Below, in pieces: positions 4,377 to 12,317 of a DNA stretch of 33,674 bases. The stretch is from Thermoplasmata archaeon (GTDB lineage Archaea > Thermoplasmatota > Thermoplasmata > Lutacidiplasmatales > UBA184): positions 1-33,674 of the forward strand of contig JAKIVX010000018.1 of assembly GCA_022750335.1 (NCBI GenBank), given 5' to 3'. Every line of letters begins with the position of its first letter. Position 1 is the stretch's first letter. The position numbers and the translations under genes were made by a program. The notes under the pieces were generated by a model. That model saw only the letters and a list, made by a program, of their open reading frames with translations. It did no database searches and was not told the origin of the DNA.

Positions 4377-7300
4377 GTGTGGGCGGCCGTGGAGCCCTAC
4401 TTTCGGGCGATCGAGTCCGAAGTGGACCGGGCGTACACGGTCGCCGAGAAGGCACGTCGGGAAGGTCTCGACCCCGAGACGCACACCGAGATCCCGCGCG
4501 CGCAGGACATGGCGATGCGCGTCGAGAAACTGCTCTCCCACCTCAAGATCGACGGCATTTCGGAGGAGATCCGAACCCTGGCCGCGGCCCTCCCCCGGGA
4601 AGAAGTGGCGGTTCGCATCGCCCGCCGGCTGGCCAACGATACGGCTCGCGGCGACCCCGCCGAGCGGGTCGACGTCGCCCTCCGCGTCGGCCTCGCGATC
4701 CTGACGGAGGGGATCCTGGTCGCCCCCTTGGAAGGACTGGCCGAGGTCCACGTTCGACCCGGACCCGAGGGCCCGTACATCGAACTCTACTACGCGGGAC
4801 CGATCCGCGCCGCCGGAGGCACCGCCCAGGCGCTCAGCGTCCTTCTGGCCGACATCGTCCGGCGCGACCTCGGCCTCGCGCGCTTCCGCCCTGACCGCCA
4901 GGAGGTCGAGCGGTACCAAGAGGAGATCCCGCTCTACAAGTACCACCAGCATCTTCAATACGTCCCCACGGCGGAGGAGATCGCCCTCGTCGTCCGGAAC
5001 GTCCCCGTCGCGATATCGGGCGAGTCGACCGAAGGCGACGCGGAGGTGAGCGCGTTCCGCAACCTGCCTCGGGTCCCGACCAACGGCATCCGCGGGGGAG
5101 CCTGCCTCGTCATCGCCGAGGGGCTGTGCCAGAAGGCGGCGAAGCTCCGAAGGATCGTCGACAAACTCGGCCTCGACGGCTGGGAGTTCCTGGACGAGGT
5201 GGGGCACCACGCGACGGACGACGACGACTCCCACACGCCGAAGTACCTCCAGGATTCCGTCGGGGGCCGACCGGTGCTGGCCCATCCGAGCCATCCGGGG
5301 GGATTCCGACTGGTCTACGGGCGGGCCCGGACGACCGGCCTCGCCGCCTGCGCGATCAACCCGGCGACGATGGTCATCCTCCAGCACTTCGTCGCGATCG
5401 GCACGCAGGTCAAGCTCGAATACCCCGGGAAGGCGACTGCGATGGGCGTCTGTGACACCATCGAGGGCCCCATCGTGGAGCTCGAGGACGGCACGCTCAC
5501 GGCGGTCCACGAGCCCGAACGTGCGCTCGCGCTCCTTCCCAGCGTCCATCGGATTATCGACCTCGGTGAAATTCTCGTGAGCTACGGGGAGTTCCTCGAG
5601 AACAACCGACCGCTCTCACCCGGCGCTTACACGCTCGACTGGCACGCGGCGGAGCTCACCGCGGCCGGTGCCGACCCCGACGCGCTCGCCCCCGTCCACT
5701 ACGAGGACGCCGTGAGGACGTCGGCCACGTTTCGGGTTCCGCTCCACCCGCGATGGCTGCTGTTCTGGCACGATCTGGCGCCGGGGGAGATCCGGGCGCT
5801 GTCCGAATTCATGGAAAGCACCGGACGCTGGACGGACGGCCGACTCGATTTCCCCCACGACCCGGCGTGGAAGGAGGTGCTCGTTCGACTGGGCTTTCTG
5901 ATGGGCCCCTCCGCCCCGGACCGTTGGCAAGGCGAACCCGACTCGAGTGCCGCATTGATCGGTGGCTTGGGGTTGGAGGTGGCGGACGGGCTGCTCGTGC
6001 GACGGACCGACCTCGACCCCCCGGACGAAGACCCGCTCGTCTATGTGAGCCGTCTCGCCGGCGTTCCGATCCGGGCCCGGGCCCCCTCGCGGATCGGAGG
6101 TCGGGTCGGCCGGCCCGAGAAGGCGTACCAGCGGAGCATGGAGCCGAACGTCCACGCCCTGTTCCCTGTCGGGGCGGCCGGTGGTCCCACGCGGTCGCTC
6201 CTCGAGGCGTCGCGGCACACGATGCGCGAAGGGGTCCGGGTCGAACTCGGGGTGCGGCACTGTCCCGCGTGCCAGCGCACGACCGTCTGGAATCGCTGCA
6301 CCTGCGGAACCCACACCGAGCCGGACGGCCGGGTCGTGAGCGAGCCGCTTCCGATCGCCCGCCTCTGGAGCGACGCGGTCGCGCGCCTCCACCTCGCCAA
6401 GACCCCGGTGGTCAAGGGGGTCAAGGGGCTGACGTCGCCCGGCAAGGTCCCCGAGCCGATCGAGAAGGGTATCTTGCGAGCCTCCCACCAGATCTCCGTC
6501 TACCAGGACGGCACGGCCCGATTCGACCTCACGGACCTACCCCTGACCCATTTCCGGCCCAACGAGGTGGGGACCCCCGTCGCCCGGCTGCGGGAACTGG
6601 GGTACACTCGCGATTGGGCCGGTGCGGAACTGACGGAGGGGGAACAGCTGGTCGAGCTGCGGCCGCAGGACCTCGTGGTCGCGCGGTCGTGCGGGGACTA
6701 CCTCACGCGCCTCGCCCAATTCGTGGACGACGAGCTCCTCCACCTGTACAATCTCGACCCGTATTACCGGGCGAACCGTGCCTCCGACCTGGTCGGCGCG
6801 ATCGTCGTGGCGCTCGCGCCCCACACGTCCGGCGGCGTCGCGGGACGGATCGTCGGATTCACGAACGCCGAGGCCTGCTTCGCCCACCCGGTGTTCCACG
6901 CCGCCAAGCGTCGCAACTGCGACGGGGATGAGGACTCGGTCACGCTCCTCCTCGACGCGCTGCTCAATTTTTCCCGGGCGTACCTCCCCGAGAGCCGGGG
7001 GGCGTTGATGGACAAGCCGCTCGTGCTCACGACCCGGCTGGAGGCGACCGAAGTCGACAAGGAAGCGCATCACGTCGATGTGGGGGATCGGTATCCCCTC
7101 GACTTCTACCGAGCGGCGGCCGAGCGGCGGCCGGCGAAGGAGGTCGAGTCGATGATCGACCAAGTCTCTGGTCGCCTCGGCACGGACCGCGCCCTGGCCG
7201 ACTACGGATTCACGCACGACACCGGACGGATCGCCGCCGGACCCGTCCGGTCGGCCTACCGCGATGCCCGCTCGATGAACGACATGGTCGAGCGCTCGAT

Positions 7301-7718
7301 CCTGCTCGCGACGCAGATCCGAGCCGTCGATGTGGCAGAAGCGGTCACCCTCGTGCTCAACGCCCACTTCCTTCCCGACCTCATGGGGAACCTGAAGAGC
7401 TACGCGACGCAGAAGTTCCGATGCAAGACCTGCAACGCCGCCTACCGCCGGCCGCCGCTGACGGCGCGATGCATGGCCCTGCGGCCCGGGGGCGGGCGCT
7501 GCGACGGAGAGTTGCTGTCGACGGTCTATGAGGGCTCGGTCCGCAAGTACCTCGCGCTCTCCCAGCGACTCGGGTCGATGGACGGCATCACCCCGTACGT
7601 CCGGCAGCGTATCCAGGTGCTCGGCGATTCGCTGGCGACCCTTTTTCCCGGTGCGGCGTCCCAACGGACCCTCGACCAATTCCCGGGGTCGACCGGCCCA
7701 CCGGCGTCGGACCCCTAG
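4377..7718 (+). CDS. polC: DNA polymerase D large (catalytic) subunit DP2
   Basis: This 1113-aa protein is the catalytic subunit of archaeal replicative polymerase D (also called PolD2 or DP2). It works with the small exonuclease subunit DP1, which is not in this window. Visible landmarks are an N-terminal YFRAIESEVDRAY segment, the glycine-rich motif GGTAQALSVLLADIVRRD, the GRPEKAYQRSMEPNVH region, a first zinc site at Cys629, 632, 641 and 643, the catalytic NCDGDED motif with Asp849 and Asp851, and a C-terminal zinc-finger region starting at Cys1016/Cys1019 (FRCKTCNAAYR). No intein interrupts it, although the catalytic motif is a frequent intein site in this family. The start is a GTG at 4377. 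A second GTG at 4389 lies about 26 bp after a CTTATCC box (4361-4367), which fits a leaderless start four residues later. Confidence 0.97.
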   Translation: MWAAVEPYFRAIESEVDRAYTVAEKARREGLDPETHTEIPRAQDMAMRVEKLLSHLKIDGISEEIRTLAAALPREEVAVRIARRLANDTARGDPAERVDVALRVGLAILTEGILVAPLEGLAEVHVRPGPEGPYIELYYAGPIRAAGGTAQALSVLLADIVRRDLGLARFRPDRQEVERYQEEIPLYKYHQHLQYVPTAEEIALVVRNVPVAISGESTEGDAEVSAFRNLPRVPTNGIRGGACLVIAEGLCQKAAKLRRIVDKLGLDGWEFLDEVGHHATDDDDSHTPKYLQDSVGGRPVLAHPSHPGGFRLVYGRARTTGLAACAINPATMVILQHFVAIGTQVKLEYPGKATAMGVCDTIEGPIVELEDGTLTAVHEPERALALLPSVHRIIDLGEILVSYGEFLENNRPLSPGAYTLDWHAAELTAAGADPDALAPVHYEDAVRTSATFRVPLHPRWLLFWHDLAPGEIRALSEFMESTGRWTDGRLDFPHDPAWKEVLVRLGFLMGPSAPDRWQGEPDSSAALIGGLGLEVADGLLVRRTDLDPPDEDPLVYVSRLAGVPIRARAPSRIGGRVGRPEKAYQRSMEPNVHALFPVGAAGGPTRSLLEASRHTMREGVRVELGVRHCPACQRTTVWNRCTCGTHTEPDGRVVSEPLPIARLWSDAVARLHLAKTPVVKGVKGLTSPGKVPEPIEKGILRASHQISVYQDGTARFDLTDLPLTHFRPNEVGTPVARLRELGYTRDWAGAELTEGEQLVELRPQDLVVARSCGDYLTRLAQFVDDELLHLYNLDPYYRANRASDLVGAIVVALAPHTSGGVAGRIVGFTNAEACFAHPVFHAAKRRNCDGDEDSVTLLLDALLNFSRAYLPESRGALMDKPLVLTTRLEATEVDKEAHHVDVGDRYPLDFYRAAAERRPAKEVESMIDQVSGRLGTDRALADYGFTHDTGRIAAGPVRSAYRDARSMNDMVERSILLATQIRAVDVAEAVTLVLNAHFLPDLMGNLKSYATQKFRCKTCNAAYRRPPLTARCMALRPGGGRCDGELLSTVYEGSVRKYLALSQRLGSMDGITPYVRQRIQVLGDSLATLFPGAASQRTLDQFPGSTGPPASDP

Positions 7719-7743: not shown

Positions 7744-7750
7744 CCAAATA
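7744..7750 (+). promoter_or_regulatory. TATA-like box of the tRNA-Arg gene
   Basis: CCAAATA lies in a GC-rich surrounding with its centre about 28 bp before the first base of the tRNA. This is the normal spacing of an archaeal TATA box to the start of a stable RNA. It is assigned by sequence and spacing only. Confidence 0.5.
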
Positions 7751-7774: not shown

Positions 7775-7875
7775 GGGCTTGTGGGGTAGTCTGGACTATC
7801 CTGTTGGCCTTCGAAGCCAACGACCCGGGTTCGAAATCGTCGGCGCTGCCGACGACGAAACTCCCGGCAAGCCCG
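7775..7875 (+). tRNA. tRNA-Arg (anticodon TCG) with a 26-nt intron in the T-loop
   Basis: The cloverleaf is complete only if an intron is removed. The acceptor strand GGGCTTG (7775-7781) pairs perfectly with CAAGCCC (7868-7874), followed by discriminator G. The D-arm has T8, G10-G12, A14, G18G19 and A21, with the G10-T25 pair common in archaea. The anticodon stem is TTGGC/GCCAA, with loop CTTCGAA and anticodon TCG at 7811-7813. T-stem CCGGG (7825-7829) pairs with CCCGG (7863-7867). Between them lies TTCGAA, then an insertion, then T. Removing 7836-7861 gives the canonical T-loop TTCGAAT and a 75-nt tRNA. CCA is not encoded, and there is no intron at the usual 37/38 site. It should read the CGA codon, and CGG by wobble if the anticodon is modified suitably. 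Confidence 0.93.
7836..7861 (+). other. tRNA intron (bulge-helix-bulge) at T-loop position 59/60
   Basis: The exon-intron junctions fold into a canonical bulge-helix-bulge. The T-stem forms the outer helix, and TTCG (7830-7833) pairs with CGAA (7856-7859) as the 4-bp central helix. Three-base bulges AAA (7834-7836) and ACT (7860-7862) sit on opposite strands. The intron closes with an 8-bp perfect hairpin, TCGTCGGC (7837-7844) with GCCGACGA (7848-7855), around a GCT loop. The archaeal splicing endonuclease normally cuts after the second base of each bulge, which removes exactly 26 nt and restores the T-loop. Confidence 0.92.
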
Positions 7876-8187: not shown

Positions 8188-8690
8188 TTGGCGCCTCCCC
8201 GTTCCCGGGCAGCGGCCTTCGTCGGAGGCGACTCCGTCCCTTTCTTCTCGATCAATCCCTGCAAGTGATTCACCGTTTCCCGATATCTCTTGAGCGCGTT
8301 CTGGGCGTTCGCTTCCGTGAAGTCCCAGGCTCGGGAGAGGTTGCCGTACCGCAGCCGGTACCCCTTCCGTCCCTTGCCATCGGCGACGCCTCCGACCTCT
8401 TCGAGCAGGTCGAGCGCCTTTAGCTTGTTGATGTGCCGGTAGATCGTCGGTTTGGAGGTCTTGAGGACCGCGGTGAGCTCCTCGATGTACCACGCGCGAG
8501 AGGGGTCGCGGAGAAGGCAGTCGCGGACCATCCGGTAGGCGAGGCTCGAGGCGACCGGTCCTTCGGACCCCCGGCCCTCCTCTCCCTCCGGAAGATACCC
8601 GACCAACCGCAGGAACTCCCGCAGCACCTCATCGAGGTCATCGATGGGCGTGAGCGGTGTGCTGTAACGTAACGAAAGTTCGAACGGCAT
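8184..8690 (-). CDS. Winged helix-turn-helix transcriptional regulator
   Basis: This 168-aa protein carries a winged-helix domain at about residues 50-115: LAYRMVRDCLLRDPSRAWYI, then ELTAVLKTSKPTIYRHINKL as helix-turn-helix, then LLEEVGG and a basic wing (GKGRKGYRLRYG). It ends in a helical segment that could dimerise (FTEANAQNALKRYRETVN). The N-terminal 50 residues are acidic and helical and were not recognised. It is probably a DNA-binding regulator, but its targets are unknown. It may act on the divergent hydroxylase operon, with which it shares a 92-bp intergenic region, and on its own gene. The ATG at 8690 lies about 34 bp after a TTTATTA box (8721-8727, read on this strand). The downstream gene overlaps it by four bases. 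Confidence 0.85.
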   Translation of the reverse strand: MPFELSLRYSTPLTPIDDLDEVLREFLRLVGYLPEGEEGRGSEGPVASSLAYRMVRDCLLRDPSRAWYIEELTAVLKTSKPTIYRHINKLKALDLLEEVGGVADGKGRKGYRLRYGNLSRAWDFTEANAQNALKRYRETVNHLQGLIEKKGTESPPTKAAARERGGAK

Positions 8691-8717
8691 GGCGAGCGGG
8701 TGACCCAGCCCCTCATT

Positions 8718-8730
8718 GGATAATAAAGCC
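8718..8730. promoter_or_regulatory. AT-rich divergent promoter core between regulator and hydroxylase operon
   Basis: GGATAATAAAGCC is the only AT-rich block in the 92-bp gap between the divergent winged-helix gene and the FAD subunit gene. Read on the minus strand it gives CTTTATTATCC, a good archaeal TATA box about 34 bp before the regulator ATG. On the plus strand TAATAAA could serve the hydroxylase operon, leaving a leader of about 33 nt. One box may serve either or both directions. Confidence 0.5.
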
Positions 8731-8782
8731 GGGGATTTGTGCCGAGTTCGACGCGCGAAACGCTAAGCCGAAGTGCCGGAAT

Positions 8783-9643
8783 ATGCGCCCGGTGAGCGGG
8801 TTCGACCTGGTCGTTCCGGAAACAGCGGAAGAGGCGATCGCCGCCCTCCAGACGCTCGGGCCCGGCGAAGCCGCCCCCCTCGCGGGAGGGACCGACCTAC
8901 TGCTCGACGTGGACGAAGGTCGGCTCACACCCCGCCGGATCGTGTCGCTGCGGCGACTTCCCTGGCGCACGCTCGATTGGAACGGAGACTCGCTCACGGT
9001 GGGGAGTACGTTGCCTCTCCGGTCCCTCGAGGACGACCCGCAGGTCCGCGTCAAGTATCCGGGTCTCTACGAAGCCGTCCGGAACGTGGGGAGTGTCGCG
9101 CTTCGACACCGCGCGACCCTCGGCGGCAACCTCGTCCGCGCCGCGCCGGCCTCCGACCTTATCCCGATCCTGCTCGCGCTCGACGCCGAGGTCGACCTCG
9201 TCGGTCCGCAGGGGGACCGCACGGTGCCCGTCGACCGGTTCGTCCTGGCGTCGCGCCGGACCGACCTGCGTCCGGGCGAACTCGTCCGCTCCGTACGGTT
9301 CCCCGAGCCCCGACCCTCCGATTTCCTCTGGCAACGCGTCCGTCCGGCGAACGACATCTCCCAGGTCGTGGTGGCCGTAGCCTTCTCTCCCTCGGGGCGC
9401 AGGTGGCGGGTGGCGGTCGGCGGCGTTTCTCCCCGACCCACCCTGCTCACCGAGGCGGCGGAGGCTCTCGGCAACGGCCGGCCGAACGCAGCCGCGGTCC
9501 GGCGAGCTGCCGAGTCCGCGTCCGCGCGGGCCCCGTTCGTGACCGACCGCCGGGCGTCCGAGGAGTATCGTCGCCGGCTGGTGGGGACCTTGCTCGAGCG
9601 AACGGTGGCGAGAGTCGCCGGCGCGAAGGTGTTCCCGGCATGA
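8783..9643 (+). CDS. Xanthine dehydrogenase-family FAD-binding subunit (medium subunit)
   Basis: This 286-aa protein is the FAD-carrying medium subunit of a molybdenum hydroxylase (XdhB/CoxM/CutM type), which passes electrons from the iron-sulfur subunit to the final acceptor. It has the family's two FAD pyrophosphate-binding motifs: AGGTDLL (34-40) and RHRATLGGNL (108-117, usually x-x-TxGGN). It also has the C-terminal domain segment VAVGGVSPRPTLL (210-222). Length fits the family (about 280-300 aa). The frame is open upstream to 8657, but those residues show no similarity. The ATG at 8783 places the usual FDLV/FEYxxP opening at the N-terminus. It overlaps the next gene by four bases (ATGA), making it the first gene of a coupled five-gene unit. 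Confidence 0.93.
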   Translation: MRPVSGFDLVVPETAEEAIAALQTLGPGEAAPLAGGTDLLLDVDEGRLTPRRIVSLRRLPWRTLDWNGDSLTVGSTLPLRSLEDDPQVRVKYPGLYEAVRNVGSVALRHRATLGGNLVRAAPASDLIPILLALDAEVDLVGPQGDRTVPVDRFVLASRRTDLRPGELVRSVRFPEPRPSDFLWQRVRPANDISQVVVAVAFSPSGRRWRVAVGGVSPRPTLLTEAAEALGNGRPNAAAVRRAAESASARAPFVTDRRASEEYRRRLVGTLLERTVARVAGAKVFPA

Positions 9644-10116
9644 CGCCCCGTCCGCTCCGGCTGAACGTCAACGGCACGGCCGAGGAGATCCCGGACGTAC
9701 CCGGGCCCGAACGGCTCCTGGACACGCTGCGCTGGCGGCTCAAGCTCAAGGGGACCAAGGAGGGCTGTCGTACCGGTGATTGCGGCGCCTGCACCGTCCT
9801 CGTGGACGGGCGCTCGTGCCTGTCGTGCCTCACGCTCGCGCACGAGGTGGACGGGTCGACAGTCACGACCATCGAGGTCGGAGCCGAGGAGGTCCTCGTG
9901 GCCCGGGTCCGCGCCGCGTTCGACACGGCGGGCGCACTCCAGTGCGGCTACTGTACTCCGGGGTTCGTGATGGCGGTCGCCGGTCTGCTCGGAGAGCGCG
10001 GGACGGCGGCACCGCGCGAGGAGCTCTTGGAAGGATTGGGCGGGAACCTGTGCCGGTGCACCGGCTACGCCGCGATCGTCCGAGCGGTCGACCTCCTCCG
10101 CACGGAGGTCCCGTGA
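9640..10116 (+). CDS. Xanthine dehydrogenase-family 2Fe-2S subunit (small subunit)
   Basis: This 158-aa protein is the small subunit of the hydroxylase and holds two [2Fe-2S] clusters that relay electrons from the molybdenum site to FAD. The plant-ferredoxin-type cluster has Cys43, Cys48, Cys51 and Cys63 (CRTGDCGAC and then LSC). The second, alpha-helical cluster has CGYC (Cys102, Cys105) and CRC (Cys138, Cys140). Length and order match the CoxS/XdhC-type subunits. The ATG overlaps the stop of the FAD subunit gene (ATGA), and its own TGA overlaps the GTG start of the large subunit, so the three subunits are translationally coupled in the order medium-small-large. Confidence 0.95.
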   Translation: MTPRPLRLNVNGTAEEIPDVPGPERLLDTLRWRLKLKGTKEGCRTGDCGACTVLVDGRSCLSCLTLAHEVDGSTVTTIEVGAEEVLVARVRAAFDTAGALQCGYCTPGFVMAVAGLLGERGTAAPREELLEGLGGNLCRCTGYAAIVRAVDLLRTEVP

Positions 10117-12317
10117 CGGCGGCGGCGCGTCCGGACGCAGGCGTCAAGCTAGCTGGGACGGCGGTCTTCGGGACCGACCTCGATGTCCCCGGCATGTTGT
10201 GGGCCGCGTTCGTCCCCGCCCCCATCGCCCACGGACGGATCCGCTCCTTGGACCTCCGTGCCGCCCGAGCGCTCCCGGGAGTCACCGTGCTGGGTCCCGA
10301 CGACCTCGGGCGGTTCTTCGGCCCCGCCGAGCGGGACCAGGAGCGATCGTTGTTCGCGCTGGGCGAGGTCATCTACCGAAACCAACCCCTCGCGGTCGTG
10401 GCGGCTCCCTCGGCCCTCGAAGCCCGGGCGGCGGTCGATGCCGTGAAGGTCGAGATCGACCCGCTGCCGATCATCGCGGACCTCGAGACCGTGTTCCCCG
10501 ACTGGCCGGGGTCGGACGCGGACGCCTCCCCGCAGGTCGCGGCCCACGTGCACGCGCGGCACGGAAACGTGGACGACGAATTCCGGGGGGCGGACCGAGT
10601 CGTCTCCGAGACGTATCGAACCGCCAGCGTCCACCAGGTCGCCCTCGAACCGCACGCCTGTGTGGCCGAGATCCGCGGAGACGTTTGGTACGTCCGAACC
10701 TCCACGCAGAGCCCCTTCGGGGTGCGCGAGGACACCGCGTCGCTCCTCGGTATCCCGGAATCGTCCATCGTCGTCGACGGCACGTGGGTGGGCGGTGGCT
10801 TCGGGGGAAAGGGCAGCTCGTTCCTCGAACCCTACGCCCTGATCCTCGCCCGCGCGACCGGTCGACCGGTCCGTTTTGCGCTCGGGTATCGCGAAGAGTT
10901 CCGCCTCGGCCGGACCACGCTACCGGCCGTCGTCCGGATGGAGACCGCCGTGAAGGATGGCCGCATCCGGGCTCGTCGGGTCCGGCTCCTCCTCGACGTC
11001 GGGACCTCGTTGCCGGGGCGCGACTTCGCGACGGGGTACTCGATCGGGTTCCTCCTCGGTCCGTATCGGACCGAGTCGTTCGAGGTCGAGGGGTACGCGG
11101 TCCGGACGAACAAACCACCGTTCGGTCCTCATCGCGCGCCGTTCGCCCCTCAGTGTGCCTTCGTGGTCGAGTCGCATCTCGACCATGTCGCCCGCGAAAT
11201 GAACCTCGACGGGGAAGAGTTCCGCGCGAGCCACCTCTGGCGGGAAGGCGAGTCGACGCTGCTGGGTCAGACGATCGGACCGTTCGGGATCGCGGCGGCG
11301 TTCGAACGGGCCCGCGCGACCGCCCGGGCCTGGCGGGCCGAGGCGGCGCCGGGCCACGGGGTCGGGGTCGGGTGCGGCTTCTGGTCGACCAGCACCGGTG
11401 CGGGCGGAGAGGTTCGGCTGCGCCTCGGTCCGCAACGACTCGTGGTCCTCGAAGGCGAGCGGGAGATCGGCAGCGGAAGCGTGCTCGCCGGTCTTGCCGC
11501 GGTCGCCTCCCGCGTCACCGGCCTCCCCCGCGACCGGGTGGTGATCGAATACGGCAACACCGCCGTCGCGCCCTACGACTCGGGGGTGTACGGGAGCCGC
11601 ACGCTCGGCGCGCTTGGCCGCGCGATCGAGGAGGCGGCGGTGGCCCTGCGCCGGACCGTCGCCGAGCGGCTCGGCGCCCGCGGCCAGGCCGAACTGTCGG
11701 TCGAGCGGGGTGAGATCTACGCCGAGGCCGGGGAACGCCGGGCCGCCCTCACCCTGCTCCTCACCCCGGAGGAGCACGACGCGGGCGGGTTGGTGGCCGA
11801 CGGTCGGCACTACGCGCCGTCTCGGTTGATCGACGACAGCCGCGTGCTCTCGGGTACGTTCTACCCGTACACCGACTTCACCGGAGCGGCGCACGTCGCC
11901 GAGGTCGTCGTCGACCCCGAGACCGGGGCCGTCCGCGTCGTGCGGTACGCCGCCTTCCACGACGCCGGCACCGTGGTCGACGCCGGGGCCGCCCAGGCCC
12001 AGGTCGAAGGCGGGGTCGCGATGGGACTCGGGGCCGCGCTGACCGAGGAGGCGATCTGGTCGGACGACGGTCGGCTCGTGAATGCGGGCCTGCTCGATTA
12101 CCGGATCCCGACGCTGGGGGAGATCCCGCCGATCTCGGTCGAATTCATCGAAGGGTTCGCCGGTGCGGGCCCGTTCGGGGCGAAGGGCCTCGGCGAACCC
12201 CCGATCGTCCCGGTGCCGGCGACCGTGGCGATCGCGACGCGCGCAGCCTGCGGGGCCCACGTGACTGAGCTCCCGCTCTCGGCCGAGCGCGTGGCGCGAG
12301 CGCTTAAGCTCCTTTGA
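10113..12317 (+). CDS. Xanthine dehydrogenase-family molybdopterin-binding subunit (large subunit)
   Basis: The 734-aa protein is the catalytic subunit, expected to bind a molybdopterin cofactor and hydroxylate an aldehyde, purine or other heterocycle with water as oxygen source. The N-terminal aldehyde-oxidase/hammerhead domain (about 10-120) precedes the Mo-binding domain. Key motifs are GGGFGGKG (227-234), GPHRAPFAPQ with Arg341, and GAKGLGEPP with the presumed catalytic base Glu695. The carbon-monoxide dehydrogenase signature with a selenium- or sulfur-bound Cys loop (AYRCSFR) is absent, so it is not a CO dehydrogenase. Bovine xanthine dehydrogenase has Glu802 right after GGFGGK; here that position is Gly, so xanthine is not assured as substrate. 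The GTG at 10113 overlaps the previous stop (GTGA). A long upstream open frame is antiphase to the small subunit. Confidence 0.93.
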   Translation: MTAAARPDAGVKLAGTAVFGTDLDVPGMLWAAFVPAPIAHGRIRSLDLRAARALPGVTVLGPDDLGRFFGPAERDQERSLFALGEVIYRNQPLAVVAAPSALEARAAVDAVKVEIDPLPIIADLETVFPDWPGSDADASPQVAAHVHARHGNVDDEFRGADRVVSETYRTASVHQVALEPHACVAEIRGDVWYVRTSTQSPFGVREDTASLLGIPESSIVVDGTWVGGGFGGKGSSFLEPYALILARATGRPVRFALGYREEFRLGRTTLPAVVRMETAVKDGRIRARRVRLLLDVGTSLPGRDFATGYSIGFLLGPYRTESFEVEGYAVRTNKPPFGPHRAPFAPQCAFVVESHLDHVAREMNLDGEEFRASHLWREGESTLLGQTIGPFGIAAAFERARATARAWRAEAAPGHGVGVGCGFWSTSTGAGGEVRLRLGPQRLVVLEGEREIGSGSVLAGLAAVASRVTGLPRDRVVIEYGNTAVAPYDSGVYGSRTLGALGRAIEEAAVALRRTVAERLGARGQAELSVERGEIYAEAGERRAALTLLLTPEEHDAGGLVADGRHYAPSRLIDDSRVLSGTFYPYTDFTGAAHVAEVVVDPETGAVRVVRYAAFHDAGTVVDAGAAQAQVEGGVAMGLGAALTEEAIWSDDGRLVNAGLLDYRIPTLGEIPPISVEFIEGFAGAGPFGAKGLGEPPIVPVPATVAIATRAACGAHVTELPLSAERVARALKLL

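Follow-up and report, generated by a model that had tools for sequence, protein, structure and literature searches.

Introns of archaeal tRNA genes that lie outside the canonical 37/38 position have been tied, in the parts of two reviews drawn on here, to splicing endonucleases (EndA) of the (αβ)2 or ε2 type (PMC4090602, PMC4033280). Position 59/60 is among the non-canonical positions listed for Crenarchaeota and Nanoarchaeota, and Euryarchaeota with α4 or α2 enzymes are described in the same portion of text as carrying single introns at the canonical position (PMC4090602). Korarchaeum is given as the only α2 archaeon with non-canonical introns, with an enzyme that has a special loop, and M. 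kandleri and M. thermautotrophicus are listed as euryarchaeal multi-intron cases (PMC4033280, sections cited). A collection of 673 non-canonical introns in 217 genomes used one model built on introns of Crenarchaeota and Euryarchaeota, from which it appears that some euryarchaeal cases were known to its authors (PMC8450103, as excerpted). The α'2 enzymes have been classed as narrow, with CSL and ASL as the loops conferring broad specificity (PMC6379350, relevant passages); the ASL loop is given as 11 residues and the CSL as 15–18, with Lys near the catalytic centre (PMC12397907, likewise). Homodimeric EndA of Ferroplasma acidarmanus, from the same phylum as the archaeon studied here, is reported to cut minimal bulge–helix–bulge (BHB) substrates, so that the location of a BHB away from the anticodon arm need not preclude cleavage (PMC8707768, excerpt). 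The available text of a Methanomassiliicoccales paper mentions an intron on a single occasion, one of the group II kind (PMC4153887), and the main text, as accessible, of a description of soil genomes of the order Lutacidiplasmatales, MAG AcS5-107 among them, does not contain the word (PMC9287336). Among the literature matches listed, no title or opening of an abstract described T-loop tRNA introns in Thermoplasmatota; the search extended neither to GtRNAdb nor to subscription papers or preprints, and priority is therefore not proven.

We analysed a window of 33,674 nt (the whole stretch of DNA under study) from an uncultured soil archaeon of, or very near, the order Lutacidiplasmatales, whose genome is designated G000 below. 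The window carries a tRNA-Arg(TCG) gene at 7775-7875 on the + strand with a 26-nt intron in the T-loop. With a probability of roughly 93 %, we read this locus as a working tRNA-Arg(TCG), the only one found in the genome, from which a BHB intron would be cut by a two-unit EndA and the exons joined by RtcB.

Anatomy of the gene and its detection

Exon 1 (7775..7835, +; positions 1-59, anticodon loop CTTCGAA) was delimited by the orthologues and the spliced ARAGORN match, and exon 2 (7862..7875, +; positions 60-73) by its pairing with exon 1 in the T-stem (5/5) and acceptor stem (7/7). Excision of the intervening 26 nt at 59/60 (7836..7861, +) restores the tRNA, with the anticodon stem also fully paired (5/5) and a T-loop reading TTCGAAT. 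The minimum free energy (MFE) structure returned by RNAfold for the unspliced gene is exactly the BHB of the original prediction, at -53.8 kcal/mol, where shuffles average -35.4 kcal/mol (z -5.6; none of 200 was as stable). In this fold the outer helix is the T-stem. T-loop residues 54-57 (TTCG, 7830..7833, +), paired in 100 % of cells across 29 orthologues, form the 5' strand of a 4-bp central helix, and CGAA (7856..7859, +) forms its 3' strand. The central helix is flanked by two 3-nt bulges, AAA (7834..7836, +) and ACT (7860..7862, +), and the inner helix is an 8-bp intron hairpin with loop GCT (7837..7855, +; 7837-7844/7848-7855), seen in the MFE fold and backed by covariation. The BHB of the window gene is thus perfect in all its parts. 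On this geometry, splicing would join T-loop position 59 to position 60, with putative cuts at 7835/7836 and 7861/7862 under the BHB rule. Sequence and fold therefore bear out the predicted coordinates, exons, 26-nt intron, stems and BHB, and the gene has a T-loop intron at 59/60 and none at 37/38, as had been described.

The known archaeal pathway suggests how such a gene would be expressed. Transcription would proceed from a TATA-like box (AAATA, 7746..7750, +) located 29 bases upstream of the tRNA, the promoter role of which is putative. The precursor would fold on the T-stem, which serves as its outer helix, followed by the 4-bp central helix TTCG/CGAA and the 8-bp intron hairpin; a two-unit α'2-type EndA would cut between the second and third nucleotides of each bulge, and RtcB would join the exons to yield the T-loop TTCGAAT. 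In the surrounding sequence, the gene directly upstream (4377-7718) encodes the large subunit of DNA polymerase D (DP2), its three DP2 domains from Pfam sharing a single frame, whilst genes of the molybdenum hydroxylase type, with FAD-binding and molybdopterin-binding domains, are present downstream (8657-12317).

The expectation that ordinary finders may miss the gene holds for both ARAGORN and Rfam. ARAGORN made no call in the unspliced window but reported tRNA-Arg(tcg) once the intron was removed, and Rfam RF00005 matched only 7775-7833, at 20.4 bits, below the 29-bit cut-off. Elsewhere in G000, the unspliced Asp and His genes, like that for Arg(TCG), also lacked an ARAGORN call and were missed or truncated by the Rfam tRNA model, so intron-bearing tRNAs of this kind could look absent in annotations. 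The structure described is specific: the 160-nt stretch around the gene holds 15 BHB candidates, and excision yields an ARAGORN tRNA for just one of the 15, the one described here. A strict scan for T-loop-intron tRNAs gave a single match in the window, at this site, and none in the reversed window, in 20 mononucleotide shuffles or in 241 reversed loci totalling 1,216,236 bases; in the forward direction 89 of the 241 loci matched, many of these loci having been fetched for just such a match. Two tRNA-Gln genes with T-loop introns did receive unspliced ARAGORN calls, which we rejected as mispaired alternatives running into the intron. At a further G000 locus (L051), the intron mode of ARAGORN reads Trp(cca); in our reading it is a tRNA with anticodon CAT whose intron lies in the D-loop, since the structure recurs at a congener locus (L342). 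Two different splicings of this D-loop intron, of 28 and 26 nt, were obtained.

Conservation and covariation among orthologues

A similarity search covered 61 genomes, of which 37 belong to the genus (counting G000 itself) and 24 are other relatives. Strong matches to tRNA-Arg(TCG) were found in 30 of the 37 genus genomes, the seven others (G004, G009, G015, G017, G023, G028 and G034) being 57-80 % complete. One of the 30 loci (L031) was set aside, as a contig end falls inside the gene, leaving 29 orthologues. In that genome (G008) the assembly breaks inside the tRNA and the two parts, L031 and G008:C35:1-47, lie at contig ends and represent one gene; a GC-rich hairpin may have hindered assembly there.

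All 29 readable orthologues carry the 59/60 intron, with no mismatch in the central helix when G-U pairs are allowed. Their introns are all distinct (29 sequences, 23-34 nt) around 13 distinct mature tRNAs, and mean pairwise identity is 96 % in the exons, 67 % in the introns, and 56 % and 60 % in the two flanks. The parsing pattern required the acceptor, GGGTTCGAA and CCC, which are consequently present by construction, but left the 3' strand of the intron free; that central-helix strand nevertheless reads CG followed by A/G and A/G in 29/29 orthologues. Covariation was assessed against 500 shuffles, none of which reached the observed share of standard pair cells in the alignment (98.0 % vs 91.4 % shuffled), the number of double-change cells (49 vs 15.3) or the covariation score (0.204 vs 0.090), and seven of which reached the number of further pair types (17 vs 13.7). 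Sliding the partners by 1-3 columns reduced pairing to 30-48 %, a comparison in which the structure is favoured by having been derived from the same sequences. Within the intron helix, all six counted pairs show double-sided changes in some sequences, and 90.7 % of cells are paired. The inner helix is not uniformly strong, since seven of the 29 orthologues have just 0-2 bp of unbroken pairing next to the bulge, a point that counts against our reading. Upstream, AAATA starts 28-31 bases before the gene in 28/29 orthologues, with ATATA in its place at the remaining locus (L032).

These data bear on two other explanations of the locus. Rejection of the unspliced sequence by ARAGORN and Rfam would be expected of a tRNA pseudogene, or of a tRNA-derived fragment disrupted by an insertion. 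Against this stand the near-constant exons, the covarying introns and the upstream box held at a fixed distance in 28/29 orthologues. Every orthologue retains the intron, in distinct sequences and with compensatory helix changes, which is not how a pseudogene would be expected to look. A second, intronless copy, which the original prediction had named as refuting, was not found: no second intact tRNA-Arg(TCG) was detected in the 37 genus genomes, where no further match covering exon 1 exceeds 78 % identity. At 72 % completeness, the assembly of the window genome could still lack another copy, though none is seen in any congener. The same 59/60 intron is also present in the Asp, His and Asn tRNAs, again with no intact copy among the loci identified. 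For each of these three amino acids, one isoacceptor is normally the only one. We thus regard a pseudogene as extremely improbable, and the predicted working gene is upheld by conservation and covariation.

The stability of the unspliced fold, and nothing further, would speak for an insertion kept in the mature RNA, making the product a tRNA-like RNA with another role. Such an insertion breaks the T-loop, its length varies from 23 to 34 nt, and the parts that are conserved are those that a BHB needs. No conserved loop sequence was detected among the 29 introns. Retention is accordingly about as hard to credit as a pseudogene, and a genus-wide shared role for the excised intron was rejected on the same ground of an unconserved loop. 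A working tRNA-Arg(TCG) from which the intron would be spliced remains the preferred reading.

Introns at 59/60 and in the D-loop across the lineage

Such an intron had been considered unusual in a Thermoplasmata-like genome. The intron is real, but it does not stand alone, as the same genome holds at least nine and the trait runs through the lineage. Splicing tests on 36 candidate loci of G000 (34 tRNA-model matches, with Asp and His added from pattern or similarity matches) identified at least nine tRNAs with 59/60 introns, namely Arg(TCG), Gln(CTG), Asp(GTC), His(GTG), Asn(GTT), Ser(GGA), Glu(CTC), Arg(TCT) and Ala(GGC), whilst two further genes, Arg(GCG) and a CAT tRNA, have D-loop introns. 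The congener G029, which is 100 % complete, has at least 13 tRNAs with 59/60 introns among 42 tRNA-model matches, comprising the same nine together with Gly(TCC), Ser(GCT), Ser(CGA) and Lys(TTT); its D-loop introns are in Lys(TTT), besides the one at 59/60, Arg(GCG) and the CAT tRNA. The 42 matches include L363 and a second L328 match, both without assignment, and L339, by eye an intact Glu(TTC).

The D-loop BHB introns recur across species, in tRNA-Arg(GCG) of G000, G029 and G018 and in the CAT tRNA of G000 and G029 (L153 on G000 contig C6, L160 on G000 contig C25, L350 and L342 in G029, and L357 in G018), and judging from these sequences the D-loop is a second non-canonical intron site in the genus. 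D-loop and 59/60 introns occur together within one gene in Lys(TTT) of G029 (L364) and G038 (L149), and in L126 of G344, which was parsed as Leu(TAA) and is by eye the same Lys, one base off.

Across the phylum, the 59/60 pattern (GGTTCRAA ... YGRAAYTCC) was found in 114 of 389 Thermoplasmatota genomes, compared with 26 of 389 for the pattern written backwards; within the genus the figures were 15/15 and 0/15. In G038, a member of the same order, Arg(TCG) carries introns at both 37/38 and 59/60 in addition to the two-intron Lys(TTT), and Arg(TCG) of G049 has a 59/60 intron. Arg(TCT) carries both 37/38 and 59/60 introns in G389, G353, G297, G223 and G348, and that at 59/60 alone in G383, G327, G364 and G175, whilst Arg(CCG) has a second intron in G050, G057, G060 and, in another class, G091. 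Nine other class members have an intronless tRNA with a TCG anticodon (L066, L068-L072, L074, L076 and L079), and two pattern matches (L115 and L120), together with those from other classes (L085-L112), gave no tRNA on splicing. A scan of named-genome contigs parsed at least 67 of at least 119 stretches as 59/60-intron tRNAs among the matches listed, at least four of which, from bacterial records and scoring no more than 16.1, seem to be chance matches. Beyond the phylum, 59/60 introns were observed in Met CAT of a Jordarchaeia record (L246), in Lys CTT of a Micrarchaeota record (L182) and in Woesearchaeota records, one of which (L183) has it in Leu CAA with an additional 37/38 intron.

The BHBs of these genes are often less strict than that of the window gene. 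We surveyed the central helix in 32 genes with 59/60 introns (nine from G000, 13 from G029 and ten from G018), of which 30 could be parsed (all except L337 and L364). One central-helix mismatch is present in 18 of the 30 parsed introns, and none in the window gene. G57 faces C in 12/12 parsed genes, and A57 faces G in 15/18, T in two and A in one, so that the innermost central-helix pair of A57 tRNAs is usually an A.G mismatch. The Asn(GTT) tRNAs of G000 (L159) and G029 (L333) have CCAA opposite TTCG, giving a C.C mismatch at position 56, and the helix of the G018 gene (L133) is perfect.

Most of the non-canonical introns met in this lineage sit at 59/60, and the T-loop itself may explain why. 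Exon residues 54-59 (TTCRAA) are common to many tRNAs and would supply half of the BHB; since the T-loop TTCRAAT provides this exon half, 59/60 would readily take up introns in many tRNAs. Any tRNA of this kind could accommodate an intron whose 3' end matches, and the lineage may have filled the position often by this route. Recent copying of introns between tRNAs was also considered. With Gly omitted, the other 12 of the 13 introns at 59/60 in G029 were compared and proved barely more alike than shuffles, with a mean score of 0.92 against -0.33 (sd 2.75) and a best pair of 9.5 against a shuffle maximum of 10.0, which lends no support to recent transposition.

The splicing endonuclease and comparison with known systems

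The only EndA found in G000 is a 354-aa protein with two PF01974 units (L001:718-1782), and the RtcB ligase is also present (E 2.9e-173). PF01974 matches were obtained in 55 of the 61 genomes, including 27/27 with completeness of 90 % or more and contamination of 5 % or less; the six without a match are congeners that are 59-78 % complete. Two units in one frame are the rule, with one in G005 and G020 and three pieces in G011, and the complete genome G029 has just one EndA gene, of the two-unit form. Tyr285, His300 and Lys331 are invariant in 26/26 aligned EndA sequences, G000 included, and match to known enzymes suggests that these three residues form the catalytic triad. An α'2-type enzyme is marked by a single gene, a pair of fused units and a triad in the C-terminal unit, and on sequence and model the EndA of this genome is predicted to be one. 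Its AlphaFold model (mean pLDDT 92) is matched best by M. kandleri 5X89 and A. fulgidus 2GJW. No CSL- or ASL-like insertion, the mark of broad specificity, was seen by alignment. The location of the loop was taken via alignments from the 3P1Y graft into A. fulgidus; the segment that precedes the YG..LSL(L/I)E strand is one residue longer than in M. jannaschii and four longer than in A. fulgidus, and longer in none of 23 class members aligned. The typing of the endonuclease proposed in the original prediction thus yields an α'2 enzyme without such an insertion, a type that reviews tie to canonical BHBs only. Near the catalytic site (P0001 residues 292-296), the eight aligned EndA sequences from the genus all share YPR(N/S)P, a motif found in none of 16 other class members, most of which are acidic there (e.g. 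YEGDP); this motif could bear on EndA specificity.

It is conceivable that the intron is real and that its excision involves another endonuclease, either replacing or assisting the single two-unit EndA, or a helper. Efficient removal of relaxed BHBs has been tied to (αβ)2 and ε2 enzymes in the passages of PMC6379350 drawn on here, and 18 of the 30 parsed T-loop introns have a central-helix mismatch. However, within the PF01974 family, two-unit proteins are present in 27/27 good genomes and G029 has a single gene, and we hold this alternative to be unlikely, if less so than a pseudogene or a retained insertion. Removal by the two-unit EndA remains the favoured account. On balance, we lean towards the wider proposal that the loop-less α'2 EndA of Lutacidiplasmatales-type Thermoplasmatota removes T- and D-loop introns from a large share of tRNAs, relaxed A57/G BHBs included, which would break the CSL/ASL rule, and that a docking half-site in the T-loop drove the spread to one position.

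The kind of intron, a non-canonical BHB, is known; its combination with an apparently loop-less α'2 EndA goes against the reviews as cited above. What is presented here is a euryarchaeal lineage with introns at 59/60 and in the D-loop in many tRNAs, sometimes two per gene, alongside a predicted loop-less α'2 enzyme, so that a single recombinant protein and a handful of transcripts would put the rule of enzyme–intron co-evolution to a direct test. The 59/60 introns of Crenarchaeota and Nanoarchaeota (PMC4090602, portion cited) are alike in position, BHB fold, occurrence in several tRNAs per genome and presence of two-intron genes, but differ in that the host here is a thermoplasmatotan, the EndA is of predicted α'2 type, the introns are mostly at 59/60 and G029 has no sign of recent copying. 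Korarchaeum cryptofilum likewise combines a homodimer-type EndA with non-canonical introns, but its enzyme is reported with an (αβ)2-type specific loop, whereas no such insertion was seen here (PMC4033280, sections cited). M. kandleri and Methanothermobacter thermautotrophicus are similarly euryarchaeal with more than one intron per tRNA, but of a different lineage (PMC4033280, same sections). The genome likewise carries canonical 37/38 introns of the euryarchaeal kind (Met, Leu, Tyr and Trp), at a site other than that of the window gene. Among enzymes of known structure, the α'2 EndA of A. fulgidus and Thermoplasma acidophilum (1RLV, 2GJW, 2OHC) are alike in being two-unit single chains of the same fold (TM by query 0.76-0.78 for 2GJW and 0.61-0.63 for 2OHC); they are classed as narrow (PMC6379350, as excerpted), yet the genome here presents its EndA with non-canonical and partly relaxed BHBs. 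The best structural match, M. kandleri EndA (5X89, TM 0.87), is of similar length and also without CSL or ASL (PMC6379350, same excerpt), but 5X89 is a subunit fusion by its entry title, of an enzyme classed as (αβ)2 and constrained broad, whereas the enzyme described here is encoded by one natural gene.
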